Shown piece after piece: positions 52,515-58,426 of a stretch of 64,000 nucleotides of DNA. The stretch's first letter is position 1. Each line of letters begins with the position of its first letter. The notes beneath the pieces are model-generated. The model saw nothing but the letters and a program-made list of their open reading frames with translations, did not search any database and was not told the origin of the DNA. The translations under genes and the position numbers were made by a program. Location: the NCBI RefSeq assembly GCF_002549795.1, contig NZ_CP021435.1, forward strand, positions 1,860,001 through 1,924,000, in the 5' to 3' direction. This DNA comes from Halomonas beimenensis (lineage in GTDB: Bacteria; Pseudomonadota; Gammaproteobacteria; Pseudomonadales; Halomonadaceae).

Positions 52515-52614
52515 ATGACCTAGTACCACAGTAGGACAACAGCCGTACTACACTGGAACTACGCCCACTCCCATGACGGGTCCGCCATCCGGGCCCGGTC
52601 TCAAGGACAGTGAC

Positions 52615-54036
52615 ATGGAAGACTCACGGATCAGCACGGGCTGCGAGGGACTCGACCATATCCTGGGGGGCGGCCTTCCGCCCCACAAGGCCTACATGGT
52701 GCGAGGCGGCCCGGGGCATGGCAAGACGTCGCTCGGCCTGCAGTTCCTCTCCGCCGCGCGGTCCCTGGGGCCCGCCCTCTACATCGGCTTCCAGGAAACG
52801 GAGGAACAGCTCAGGGAGAATGCCGGGCGCCAGGCCCTGGACATCGACGGCCTCCACCTGCTCAGCCTGGTCCCCGACGAGAGCCTCTTCGCCCACAACC
52901 AGAGCTACGATCTTTTCCATCCCGTCGAGGTCGAGTTCGACCCCCTGGTGAAGCGGATCCTCGACGCCGTGGAGTCCTGTCGGCCGGCCACCGTGTTCAT
53001 CGACTCGGTCAGCCATCTGCACCTGCTGTTCTCCGACGCCTATCAGTTCCGGGCCCAGGTGCTGTCCTTCCTGCGCTATCTGCGCCAGCAGGGCTGCACG
53101 GTGCTGTTCTCCTCCGAGATCGGGGAACGGGCCTCGGACGTCGACCTGCAGTTTCTCGCCGATGGCGTGATCGAGCTCGGCGCCGAGCGTCACCATGGCT
53201 ACCTCCAGGTCCGCAAGCTGCGCGGCGCCCGCTTCATGCCGGGCCGGCATCAATGCCGGGTCGGCGCCCGGGGCGTCCAGGCCTTTCCTCACCATGTCCC
53301 GCCCGTGGCCCGCACCGAGGCGCCGGACAGCGAGCGCCTCTCCTCGGGCAACGATCGTCTGGATCGCCTGCTCGGCGGAGGGCTCGAGCCCGGCAGCGTG
53401 ACCCTGATCACCGGCCCCTCGGGCGTGGGCAAGTCCACCCTGGCGGCCTGCTACGCCCGCCAGGCCATCCGTCGGGGTAGCGTGCTGATCTACCTGTTCG
53501 AGGAGGAACTCCCCTTCTACCTGAAGCGCGCCGCCGATCTGGGCCTGTCCCTGGCTCCCTTCCAGCGCGACGGCCTGCTGGAGATCGAGCAGGTCGAGCC
53601 GATGCGCTACCTGGTGGACGAGTTCCTGGAGCGCGTGCGGTGCCGGGTCGAGGCCCTCGACACCCGGCTGGTCATCCTCGACAGCGTGTCGGGCTTCGAG
53701 CTGTCGTTGAACGGCGAGCATCTCAAGGATCGGATCCATGCGTTCGCCAAGGGCCTGGCGCGACGCGGCATCTCGGTGATCCTGATCAACGAGATCCAGG
53801 CCATGAGCGGTCCCCTGGCGTTGACCGAGCGCGGCATCAGCTATCTCGCCGACAACGTCCTGTTGCTCAACTATCGTGAAGACGGCGAACGCATGGGCAA
53901 GATGCTGGGCGTCCTGAAGAAGCGGGTGGGGAGCTTCGACAACCGCATCTGCGCCTACCGGATCGGCCAGGGGGGGCTGCAGCTCTCGGATGACGAGGTC
54001 GACACCAGCCTGCTCAACCGCGGCCCGGGGGCCTGA
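52615..54036 (+). CDS. KaiC-like two-domain RecA-fold ATPase
   Basis: A 473-residue KaiC-superfamily ATPase with two tandem RecA domains. Walker A boxes are GGPGHGKT (31-38) and GPSGVGKS (267-274), each followed by Walker B-like VFID and LVILDS. In the first domain the catalytic pair reads QE (FQETEEQL); in the second EEE is kept (LFEEELPF). Aligning by eye to cyanobacterial KaiC, the phosphosite S-T becomes S409-Y410. No KaiA or KaiB is near. The ATG at 52615 has AAGGA upstream. It is coupled to the EAL protein. Confidence 0.88.
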   Translation: MEDSRISTGCEGLDHILGGGLPPHKAYMVRGGPGHGKTSLGLQFLSAARSLGPALYIGFQETEEQLRENAGRQALDIDGLHLLSLVPDESLFAHNQSYDLFHPVEVEFDPLVKRILDAVESCRPATVFIDSVSHLHLLFSDAYQFRAQVLSFLRYLRQQGCTVLFSSEIGERASDVDLQFLADGVIELGAERHHGYLQVRKLRGARFMPGRHQCRVGARGVQAFPHHVPPVARTEAPDSERLSSGNDRLDRLLGGGLEPGSVTLITGPSGVGKSTLAACYARQAIRRGSVLIYLFEEELPFYLKRAADLGLSLAPFQRDGLLEIEQVEPMRYLVDEFLERVRCRVEALDTRLVILDSVSGFELSLNGEHLKDRIHAFAKGLARRGISVILINEIQAMSGPLALTERGISYLADNVLLLNYREDGERMGKMLGVLKKRVGSFDNRICAYRIGQGGLQLSDDEVDTSLLNRGPGA

Positions 54037-55748
54037 TGTCGGCGATGAGCGCTTCCCGCGACAAGGGACGATTGCTGCTGCTGGTGGCGTCAGCCGCCAA
54101 TCGACGCCTGCTGACCGAGGCCTTCGATGGCGATTACGAGTGGCTCGCGCCCTCCGCGGATACCCTGCGTCCCCGGTCCTTCGACCTGGTCATCGCCGAC
54201 CCCCGTGGCCTCGCGCGCCACCGGGAGGCCTTGCGACGGATACGTGAGCAGGAGGCGCCGACGCTGCTGCCCGTGCTGCTGTTGATCGGGCGTGTCGAGA
54301 TGCGGAGCTCGCTGGCCGACTTCCGGGATCTGGTGGACGAGTTCGCCGTGCTTCCCGCCGATCGCGTCGAACTGACCACCCGCCTCCACCTCTGGATGCG
54401 TGCCCGGCGCCTGTCGCTACGACAGCGCGATCATCTGGCCCACCTGGTCCATCACGATCGGCTGACGGGCCTGCCGGTCCATCCCCTGCTGCTGGATCGC
54501 CTGCGGCAGGCCCTGGCCTACTCGGAGCAGCCCGGCGAACGGGTCTTCCTGCAGGTCGTCGAGGTGCCCGCCGTGACCCTGGTGAACGCCCTGGGGCAAC
54601 AGGGACGAGACCTGGCCGTCTGCCGGCTGAGCGAGCGACTGAGCCGACGGATCGACGAGCGGGCCACCCTGGCCAGGATCGGCGACACCCAATGGGGGCT
54701 CCTGCATCCCCCCGGCGAGTCCCTCGAGGACGTCCTCGACCTCAGCCGTGCGCTGTGCCAGGCGATGCTCGAGCCCCTCGACATCGGGGGCGAACGGGTC
54801 CATGTCTCCCCTCGCGTGGGGATCGCCGCGGCGCCCGACGATGCCCGGGACGCCGAGGCCCTCCTGGACCGTGCCCTGCAGGCGTTGTGTACCGCGAAGG
54901 CCGATTCTCCCGCCTTCTTCTCCGCCCGGACGCGGCGGGAAGCGACGGATTTCCTCAGGATCGAGGCCAGCCTGAGGCATGCCCTGTCCCACGGCGGGCT
55001 GGAACTCTGGCTGCAGCCCAAGCTGCGGCTGGGAGACGGTCGCGTCGAGGCCGCCGAAGCCTTGATTCGCCTGCGCCGCCCGGACGGTTCCCTGTTGCCC
55101 CCGGGCGCCTTCATCGCGGTGGCCGAGACCAGCGGCCTGATCCGGGCGCTGACGCACTGGGTGATACAGGAAGCCTGCCGCCGGCTCGCGACCTGGCGCC
55201 AAGCCGGCAAGGGCATGGCGCGCCTGGCGATCAACGTGTCGGCGCATGACCTGGAGGAGGAAGGCTTCGCGGCCTTCCTGCTGGATGCCCTGCAGCGACA
55301 GGGATTGCCGAGCTCGGCCCTGGAGCTGGAACTGACCGAGACGACCCTGTTCGCCATGACCGACCGCAGCCTCGCCGCCCTGGGGCGGCTGCGCGAGGCC
55401 GGGATGCGCATCGCCATGGACGACTTCGGCACCGGCTACTCGACCTTGAGCTATCTGCACCGGCTGCCGATCGATGTGCTGAAGATCGATCGGGCCTTCG
55501 TCGAGGAGGTCCACCTGCACCCCGTGCGGGCCGGGATCATCCGCGCGATCCTGTCCCTGGCCGAGAGCCTGCGGCTCGACACCGTGGCGGAAGGCATCGA
55601 ATCCGAGGCCGAGGCGGCCTTCCTCGCCGAGCTGGGCGTCGAAGTCGGACAAGGCTACCTGTATGCCCGCCCCATGCCCGAGGCCGAGCTGATGGCCTGG
55701 CTGGACACGCCGAGGCCCCGGTCCGCGGGCGGTACCGGGGCCTCGTAG
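54036..55748 (+). CDS. Pseudo-receiver, degenerate GGDEF, EAL phosphodiesterase
   Basis: A 570-residue signalling protein. Residues 10-118 resemble a receiver (Asp55 present, but the usual Lys is lost in LPADRVEL), 130-300 is a GGDEF domain whose signature is the inactive RIGDTQW (214-220), and 310-560 is an EAL c-di-GMP phosphodiesterase with EAL (341-343), Asn400, Glu435, Asp462-463, Lys483, Glu519 and Gln539 in place. It is likely active. Its ATG overlaps the KaiC-like stop by one base (TGATG), so the two proteins are coupled. Confidence 0.9.
   Translation: MSAMSASRDKGRLLLLVASAANRRLLTEAFDGDYEWLAPSADTLRPRSFDLVIADPRGLARHREALRRIREQEAPTLLPVLLLIGRVEMRSSLADFRDLVDEFAVLPADRVELTTRLHLWMRARRLSLRQRDHLAHLVHHDRLTGLPVHPLLLDRLRQALAYSEQPGERVFLQVVEVPAVTLVNALGQQGRDLAVCRLSERLSRRIDERATLARIGDTQWGLLHPPGESLEDVLDLSRALCQAMLEPLDIGGERVHVSPRVGIAAAPDDARDAEALLDRALQALCTAKADSPAFFSARTRREATDFLRIEASLRHALSHGGLELWLQPKLRLGDGRVEAAEALIRLRRPDGSLLPPGAFIAVAETSGLIRALTHWVIQEACRRLATWRQAGKGMARLAINVSAHDLEEEGFAAFLLDALQRQGLPSSALELELTETTLFAMTDRSLAALGRLREAGMRIAMDDFGTGYSTLSYLHRLPIDVLKIDRAFVEEVHLHPVRAGIIRAILSLAESLRLDTVAEGIESEAEAAFLAELGVEVGQGYLYARPMPEAELMAWLDTPRPRSAGGTGAS
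55713..55743. terminator. Terminator hairpin of the EAL gene and ectC
   Basis: AGGCCCCGGT / ACCGGGGCCT, a perfect 10-bp stem with an 11-base loop, overlaps the last codons of the EAL gene and lies 27 bases past the ectC stop on the other strand. It probably acts for both. Confidence 0.6.
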
Positions 55749-55769: not shown

Positions 55770-56186
55770 TCAGAGCGGCTTGCTGTCGTCGGCTTCCTCG
55801 TCGGCGGGCGCGTAGGAGCCGTCGGCACGATGCACTTCCTTGCCGGTCAGGCCGGGGGTGAAGACGCATGCCAGGTGCATGGTCTTGTGGGCCCGCAGCA
55901 GGTGCTCGTCGTGCTGGTCCAGGATGTAGATGTCGCCCGGCTTGATCGGCCAGATCTTGCCATCGGCCAGGGTCTCGACCTCCCCTTCCCCTTCCATGCA
56001 GAACACCGCCTCGAAGTGGTGCTTGTAATGGATATGGGTCTCGGTCCCCTCGTAGATACGCGTGACGTGGAAGGAGCAGTTGCCGCCGTCGTCGGCCAGC
56101 GACAGGCGGGTGCTGTCCCAGTTGCCGTTCTCGGCCTTGACCAGGCGCTCGGTCTGGCGCGCTTCCTCGAGATTGCGAACGATCAT
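55770..56186 (-). CDS. ectC: Ectoine synthase EctC
   Basis: A 138-residue cupin that cyclises N-gamma-acetyl-2,4-diaminobutyrate to ectoine. The start [15 protein letters not shown], the [20 protein letters not shown] block and [20 protein letters not shown] are typical, with metal ligands Glu and His in the cupin core. It agrees very closely with Halomonas elongata EctC as I remember it. The ATG at 56186 has no strong upstream alternative. It is the third gene of ectABC. Confidence 0.97.
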
Positions 56187-56285
56187 GACGCTCTCCGTGA
56201 TGTCAGATGAAGCCGGCCCGGCAGACCGACACGAGGCACCGGCCATCCCCCGTGCGGCGGATGGCCGGCCTTGCCGTTCAGCCTA

Positions 56286-57638
<1,353 letters not shown>

Positions 57639-58217
57639 TCAGATGTCGGCGGTCTGGAAGGGGCCGATGCGCACGAGGTTCTCGGGGTCGTGCTCGCCGC
57701 CGAGCTGATCGGTGGAGAAGTATTCGCGACTGTTCAGGGGAGCCTGCCAGCGATCCGCCAGCCTGCGGAACAGCCCCCAGGACGCCTGGTTGTCGGGGGT
57801 GATGGTGGTCTCGAGGTGGTGCACCTCGGCGAGCTCCGGACGGGTCATCACGGCCTCGACCAGGCGGCGGGCCAGGCCGGTGCCGCGCGCCTTCTCACCC
57901 ACCGCGACCTGCCAGAGGAAGTAGGTGTCGGGCGCGTTGCTCTTCACGTAGCCGGACACGAAGCCGACGATCTCGCCCTCCTCGTTGGTGGCCACCGCAC
58001 AGGTATCGCGGAACTGGGTCGCCAGCAGCAGGTAGGCATAGGCGGAATTGACGTCCAGCGGGGGGCAGGACTTGACCAGCTCGTAGACGCCCCAGCCATC
58101 GTCGGGATTGGGCTTGCGAATGAACAGCGGGGTGGCCTGGTGGCCGACCACGGCATCGGCCACGCTCGGCCGGGCCAGGTCGGCGGAAGGAATGAAGGGC
58201 TCTGTGGTTGCGTTCAT
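57639..58217 (-). CDS. ectA: L-2,4-diaminobutyrate acetyltransferase EctA
   Basis: A 192-residue GNAT-fold enzyme, second step of ectoine synthesis. The acetyl-CoA loop is VAVGEKARGTGLARRLVEA, and DTYFLWQVAVG and LETTITPDNQASWGLFRRLA match Halomonas EctA. MNATTEPF agrees with the known protein, although AGGAGGGG lies 12-15 bases upstream of in-frame ATGs at 58253/58250 (MMPSKFATANTT), so a 12-residue longer form is possible. It heads ectABC and is preceded by a promoter and a leader hairpin. Confidence 0.96.
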   Translation of the reverse strand: MNATTEPFIPSADLARPSVADAVVGHQATPLFIRKPNPDDGWGVYELVKSCPPLDVNSAYAYLLLATQFRDTCAVATNEEGEIVGFVSGYVKSNAPDTYFLWQVAVGEKARGTGLARRLVEAVMTRPELAEVHHLETTITPDNQASWGLFRRLADRWQAPLNSREYFSTDQLGGEHDPENLVRIGPFQTADI

Positions 58218-58279
58218 TGTCGTGTTCGCTGTAGCGAATTTGGAAGGCATCATAACAGCCGCACCCCTCCTTTTCAAAA

Positions 58280-58295
58280 AGCAGGTTATCCTGCT
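58280..58295 (-). promoter_or_regulatory. Terminator-like hairpin in the ectA leader
   Basis: AGCAGG / CCTGCT with a 4-base loop, followed on the minus strand by TTTTTG. It lies between the -10 box (58317-58322) and the ectA start, so it could stop transcription early and act as an attenuator, or be a stabilising 5' hairpin. Confidence 0.5.
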
Positions 58296-58316
58296 GCCGA
58301 AAAACCATAATGCGGA

Positions 58317-58344
58317 ATTATAGTATGCGCCACGGCACACGGAA
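58317..58344 (-). promoter_or_regulatory. Promoter of ectABC
   Basis: Minus-strand TATAAT (58322-58317), preceded by TACTATAAT context, with a TTCCGT-like -35 at 58344-58339 and a 16-base spacer. The ectA start lies 100 bases downstream. Osmotic control via sigma-70 and sigma-38 promoters is known for ect operons in Halomonas, but I cannot distinguish them here. Confidence 0.5.
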
Positions 58345-58396
58345 GGCGCGGCCTCTTTGCAGAATAGTCCAGCCGTGAACGACGTTCCCCAACGCA

Positions 58397-58426
58397 AGCG
58401 GGCCACCCTGTCCAGGGTGGCCCGCT
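58397..58426. terminator. Strong hairpin downstream of gor
   Basis: A perfect 14-bp stem AGCGGGCCACCCTG / CAGGGTGGCCCGCT with a 2-base loop lies 37 bases past the stop codon of the glutathione reductase gene (minus strand) and upstream of the ectA promoter. The following TTGCGTT is only weakly T-rich. Confidence 0.7.

Follow-up and report, generated by a model that had tools for sequence, protein, structure and literature searches.

In a 64,000-nucleotide stretch of the Halomonas beimenensis genome (assembly GCF_002549795.1, contig NZ_CP021435.1, positions 1,860,001 to 1,924,000), referred to here as the window, a gene for a KaiC-like double-domain ATPase overlaps a downstream partner gene whose product contains a pseudo-receiver, a degenerate GGDEF domain and an EAL domain. 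The association is maintained wherever a KaiC of this kind was examined, and we lean, with rather more confidence than doubt, towards the view that the two genes constitute a dedicated signalling module in which an ATP-driven KaiC-like ring would tune turnover of cyclic diguanosine monophosphate (c-di-GMP) through the pseudo-receiver. The pair had been picked out in an initial interpretation of the window made from its letters alone (the sequence-only reading), and the open reading frame coordinates and TGATG coupling given there are exact.

The sequence-only reading proposed a survey of relatives, and the pair proves to be conserved, one to one in the genomes of the host's family and at seven loci beyond it. 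A search of 201 family genomes, drawn from a larger group and with scoring confined to each genome's leading candidates from a preliminary pass, yielded 35 KaiC matches in 26 genomes, of which 27, in 20 genomes, are of the close kind (at least 39% identity). The remaining eight comprise seven members of a distant clade (25-28% identity) and one decayed fragment (33% identity over 199 residues, with three stops, in G184; G and L numbers denote genomes and loci). An EAL-coding stretch lies 3' of kaiC at 26 of the 27 close-kind loci; at three of these a small gene intervenes, at two the stretch carries a frameshift, and at the twenty-seventh (G195) the contig ends within the partner. A 24-row profile (A4) representing the N-terminal domain of the partner, run over the same 201 genomes with the same restriction on scoring, gave 27 strong matches (113.5-150.9 bits), the next scoring 42.8 bits. 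Each strong match adjoins a different one of the 27 kaiC loci, with no orphan of either gene; 17 of the 27 matched loci were used to build the profile, and it is the absence of orphans rather than the scores that is informative. Seven further clade loci in other families (two in G455 and one each in G857, G726, G836, G772 and G931) are all paired, and the partner N-terminal domain is found 3' of kaiC at all 34 clade loci examined, with the EAL part visible in 33. The host genome contains 19 EAL matches, yet this particular N-terminal domain lies downstream at every one of the 34 loci, so the adjacency is beyond chance. Among 360 genomes of the class, strong A4 matches (at least 123 bits) occur only beside such a kaiC, in five genomes including that of the window; G931 was presumably not drawn among the 360. 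For four weaker pseudo-receiver relatives (46-73 bits), the 10-12 kb of surrounding sequence retrieved contains no KaiC. One such relative, L133:3430-6066 (73 bits, no KaiC within the 12 kb fetched), is a possible ancestor or orphan.

With partner starts chosen nearest to a 4-base overlap, an overlap of 1-17 bases between the kaiC stop and the partner start is possible at 25 of the 34 loci (4 bases at 15, 8 to 17 at nine, and 1 in the window). Distances among the KaiC-like proteins also correlate with those among their partners, with a Mantel r of 0.92 for the partner N-terminus and 0.97 for the EAL domain (0 of 2000 shuffles), determined over 27 of 32 pairs; L037, L042, L043, L044b and L061 were left out, and L038 is without a complete partner.

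Pfam recognizes in the partner an EAL domain (3.8e-68), a weak GGDEF domain (1.9e-13) and, up to E = 1, no receiver. However, a profile of the partner-family N-terminus compared with the PDB finds PleD first (residues 160-266, which we take to be its second, adaptor receiver; 1.1e-12), followed by many receivers. In the 24-row pseudo-receiver alignment an aspartate (D55) is invariant, but all 24 rows lack the lysine that would precede P107, and inspection by eye shows no acidic pair at the first strand; the residues of a phosphorylatable receiver are thus incomplete, in agreement with the sequence-only reading, which called this receiver inactive. It likewise called the GGDEF domain inactive, and GDTQW indeed departs from the diguanylate cyclase GG(D/E)EF motif. 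The EAL domain, described there as apparently active, carries all nine of the catalytic residues checked, which were chosen from EAL motifs, and is predicted to be a working phosphodiesterase. A KaiB-like N-terminal domain was considered and rejected, because two partner profiles give probabilities of only 0.7-1.9% against KaiB and 67-78% against receivers, the comparison profiles being built from 7 rows for KaiB and 20 for receivers.

The partners are of two kinds. Short partners (10 examined), including that of the window, consist of the pseudo-receiver, a dead GGDEF domain (0/10 intact) and EAL, while long partners (22) contain the pseudo-receiver, a GAF domain (found in five of five scanned), an intact GGDEF domain with its RxxD site (22/22) and EAL. 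Each of the nine EAL residues is conserved in all 10 short partners and in 21-22 of the 22 long ones, where a single frameshifted copy accounts for the shortfall. The short and long pseudo-receivers form one family (99% probability over 119 columns), as determined with separate profiles, since a joint N-terminal profile contains GAF columns. Partner type tracks the KaiC tree described below: the long type occupies a single side of a branch, and the short type requires two changes, owing to one long, damaged row (L061). At six short-type loci (L047, L048, L049, L079, L083 and L084) a single-domain receiver-like protein of approximately 120 amino acids is encoded between kaiC and the EAL gene, and by eye it retains both Asp and Lys. 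Apart from this small receiver gene no neighbour is conserved at more than four of the 34 loci in the largest clusters examined; the other large neighbour clusters are mostly open reading frames over kaiC or the EAL gene and were set aside.

The KaiC-like protein was earlier described as a double-domain KaiC homologue, and it does contain two PF06745 stretches (190 bits, Pfam) with Walker motifs. Its best matches are solved KaiC chains, which align over nearly their full two-domain length (best E 2.1e-41), but it scores far below NCBI's curated cut-offs for clock KaiC (137 versus 546 bits for TIGR02655 and 218 versus 408 bits for PRK09302.1). Alignment to the solved chains places S409 and Y410 at KaiC S431 and T432 (S. 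elongatus numbering), confirming the location of the Ser-Tyr phosphosite pair noted previously; neither a Ser-Thr nor a Ser-Ser pair is present in this protein. Similarly, Q60-E61 occupies the KaiC Glu-Glu position in the first domain, CI, and Q60 is the glutamine that had been recognized in place of a catalytic glutamate.

These substitutions are not peculiar to the window gene, as had been implied, but are features of a clade. In a KaiC tree of 68 rows, the KaiC proteins that have these partners (30 rows) cluster together (98/93), and the sister of this cluster is a group of 27 rows (100/99) with other signalling genes downstream. The tree leaves out L042, L043 and L044b, in which kaiC is damaged, and L055, in which kaiC is intact and closely similar to that of L056 and the partner is frameshifted. 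Tyrosine occupies the KaiC T432 position in 57 of 57 rows of this SY/TY/NY clade, preceded by Ser, Thr or, in two rows (2/21 of the long type), Asn. None of the 56 readable rows retains the first CI glutamate, which gives way to Gln in the short type (8/8 readable), to Gly in the long type (21/21) and to Ser throughout the sister group (27 rows). The second CI glutamate is retained in all 56, and the second domain, CII, has Glu-Glu or Asp-Glu in all 57. Position 404 is Thr or Ser in 30 of 30 EAL-clade rows. The shortened kaiC genes L042:5923-6714 and L043:4406-5116 each hold approximately one domain, and L042 resembles an internal deletion between the CI and CII repeats.

The sister clade offers a parallel. 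A second receiver-like domain family lies directly 3' of kaiC at 27 of 27 sister loci fetched (of 41 hits listed) and at none of six outgroup loci; 20 of these 27 built the sister N-terminal profile and seven did not. The sister partners are HisKA-HATPase-REC kinases in 10 of 10 scanned. At L085:2408-4552 a kinase-type N-terminal domain is instead fused to PAS-GGDEF-EAL, beside an SY KaiC, and because this row is nested among kinase rows its kinase output was probably exchanged for a c-di-GMP output independently. Across both clades, the output varies while KaiC and a receiver-like input persist. The EAL-clade and sister N-terminal families show 67-96% probability against canonical receivers, 1-19% against each other and less than 2% against KaiB; since each is nearer to canonical receivers than to the other, we make no wider docking-domain claim than that each clade opens its partner with a degenerate receiver.

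Neither KaiA nor KaiB was found in the 4.05 Mb host genome, a single contig, as the sequence-only reading had held. KaiB is present in five of 26 pair-bearing genomes searched (G169, G039, G726, G836 and G772), and in G169, G039, G726 and G772 it adjoins a different kaiC and not the pair. The pair therefore does not require KaiB, though some hosts carry one. In the distant KaiC clade of the family, four loci (L045, L046, L063 and L064) combine Ser-Thr sites with an adjacent EAL gene, this neighbour being HAMP-PAS-GGDEF-EAL by Pfam in the two loci scanned; a kaiB gene adjoins a distant kaiC at G169:C32 and G039:C56.

We propose that the KaiC-like protein would assemble into a two-tiered hexamer, a ring whose state, whether of bound nucleotide or of autophosphorylation, would most likely be set by ATP/ADP in CII. 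The pseudo-receiver may dock directly on this ring and read its state, and docking would alter dimerization of the partner such that c-di-GMP hydrolysis is switched on or off. The short version, as in the window, would deliver hydrolysis only, and the long version both synthesis and hydrolysis, with the GAF domain as an extra input. Support for both the partnership and its direction comes from the strictness of the pairing, the completeness of the EAL site and the parallel with the kinase clade, and ATP sensing coupled to c-di-GMP control is a plausible inference from these sequences.

Several observations weigh against this proposal. The module is patchy (20 of 201 family genomes) and several copies are decayed, indicating that it is accessory; in the family, four kaiC genes (L042, L043, L044b and L061) and two partners (L037 and L055) look damaged, as expected of an accessory module. 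G901 holds a weaker pseudo-receiver relative (73 bits) with no KaiC nearby. The correlation between KaiC and partner distances also arises from linkage and common descent, and the nearest neighbours of KaiC and partner coincide in no more than 19 of 27 pairs for the N-terminus and 17 of 27 for the EAL domain. One specific docking domain common to the EAL and kinase partners is unsupported at profile probabilities of 1-19%, and structure predictions from two-row alignments (pLDDT 43 and 52) are too poor for use.

Information could instead flow in reverse, with the partner sensing c-di-GMP or another ligand at its degenerate GGDEF domain, which could serve as a sensor, and the pseudo-receiver regulating a KaiC-like ATPase whose target lies elsewhere; the pseudo-receivers of CikA and KaiA act on the cyanobacterial Kai system (PMC12632262). 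We regard this as unlikely, because the partners have a complete EAL active site that would be needless in a pure sensor, and the scanned sister-clade partners are kinases, which are output enzymes. It is less likely still that the two proteins merely share an operon and a stimulus without contact: translational coupling would by itself yield equal dosage, but neither gene occurs as an orphan in the 201 genomes, and the pair persists despite the receiver gene inserted at six loci.

The sequence-only reading also allowed that the pair might sense time, and for this we find no support; a clock of the cyanobacterial type is disfavoured because the Ser-Thr pair is lost, one CI glutamate is altered, and KaiA and KaiB are missing from the genome. 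A reduced timer, either an hourglass or an oscillator, that places c-di-GMP under time-of-day control could draw on the hydroxyl residues at 404, 409 and 410, and an hourglass has been proposed for the related KaiC/Nt_HK pair (PMC3164672). We nonetheless consider it improbable, given Ser-Tyr in place of Ser-Thr, Asn-Tyr in 2 of 21 long-type rows, loss of the first CI glutamate, and a genome without KaiA or KaiB. Only a slim chance attaches, too, to an ATP-clocked second-messenger switch, in which a KaiA/KaiB-free KaiC ring, with the invariant Y410 replacing the phospho-Thr, would gate the phosphodiesterase via the pseudo-receiver through a slow or energy-dependent state. Although RadA/RecA and ArlH models also match the KaiC-like protein, far under their cut-offs, there is little likelihood that it is a RecA-like DNA or scaffold protein with a partner that simply degrades c-di-GMP locally, since its best matches are full-length two-domain KaiC chains and, the small receiver gene aside, no neighbour family in the largest clusters examined is common to more than four loci.

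KaiC-type ATPases also stand beside GGDEF/EAL proteins in operons that include kaiBC, of which the Legionella kai operon is reportedly a case. Such operons, which form the first group of De Luca 2011 (PMC3164672), differ from the window pair in that kaiB is present and the KaiC is of the ST or SS type, and they are resembled by the distant ST KaiC clade of the family. That paper describes SY/TY KaiC with a dedicated histidine kinase (kaiC-Nt_HK) in Ramlibacter and other bacteria, suggests a KaiB-like N-terminal domain for this kinase, and remarks that some SY/NY KaiC lie near GGDEF/EAL genes and that a receiver gene often comes directly after kaiC, with which the insertion at six short-type loci is in line; its section 17 and figure legends give no account of the partner family of the window. 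The kaiC-Nt_HK pair resembles the window pair in several respects: KaiB is absent, the KaiC is of the SY/TY type, and the gene after it encodes a signalling protein dedicated to it and marked by a distinctive N-terminal domain. The window pair also falls within the kaiC-Nt_HK definition of an SY/TY/SF KaiC in a genome with no kaiB. The kaiC-Nt_HK pair differs in that its output is a histidine kinase, the N-terminal domain of which belongs to a separate branch of the receiver superfamily. Equating our sister clade with the kaiC-Nt_HK group rests on matching features rather than on sequence comparison. Cyanobacterial KaiC with SasA/CikA shares the two RecA-like domains, and CikA uses a pseudo-receiver (PMC12632262), but that pseudo-receiver binds KaiB, whereas the window system is free of KaiA and KaiB, has SY for ST, and has the first CI glutamate replaced. 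PleD and other REC-GGDEF/EAL response regulators resemble the partner in placing a receiver-like domain directly before GGDEF/EAL; in the partner, however, the receiver is without the lysine and acidic pair, the GGDEF domain is dead, and the protein is paired with a KaiC-like ATPase. The view that such a system is not well described thus holds only in part: the general kind has been in print since 2011, but the open-licence papers searched showed no description of this partner family, the strict pairing or the two outputs beyond the sketch in PMC3164672.

The features of the locus are listed in Table 1. An AAGGA motif at 52603-52607, 7 nt 5' of the kaiC-like start, supports that start. Genes recognized by eye as ectC-, ectB- and ectA-like ectoine synthesis genes (55770-58406, minus strand) converge on the pair with a gap of 21 bases, but we reject a functional partnership with them: of the 49 loci compared, only that of the window and L006 (about 1.7 kb off) have ectC near the pair.

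Table 1. Coordinates of the KaiC-like/EAL gene pair within the window.
Feature	Position	Strand	Details
KaiC-like double-domain ATPase gene (P0001)	52615..54036	+	473 aa
CI domain	52630..53292	+	PF06745 match; Walker A G31-T38, Q60-E61 at paired catalytic Glu position, D130-S131
CII domain	53347..53988	+	PF06745 match; Walker A G267-S274, E296-E297, D356-S357, T404, S409-Y410
S409-Y410 codons	53839..53844	+	
TGATG stop/start overlap, kaiC-like/partner	54034..54038	+	
Partner gene (P0002)	54036..55748	+	570 aa; pseudo-receiver, degenerate GGDEF and EAL
Pseudo-receiver domain of partner	54069..54425	+	residues 12-130; D55 present, Lys and acidic pair absent
Degenerate GGDEF domain of partner	54450..54905	+	GDTQW in place of GGDEF
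EAL domain (predicted phosphodiesterase)	54966..55673	+	E341, N400, E432, E435, D462, D463, K483, E519, Q539

To our knowledge, few KaiC relatives outside the cyanobacteria have a known output. Here one KaiC clade is tied at every examined locus to an enzyme whose activity, c-di-GMP hydrolysis, is easily read out, and it provides a natural series running from hydrolysis only, through synthesis together with hydrolysis, to a sister clade with kinases. The role of KaiC rings without KaiA and KaiB thereby becomes directly testable with two purified proteins.

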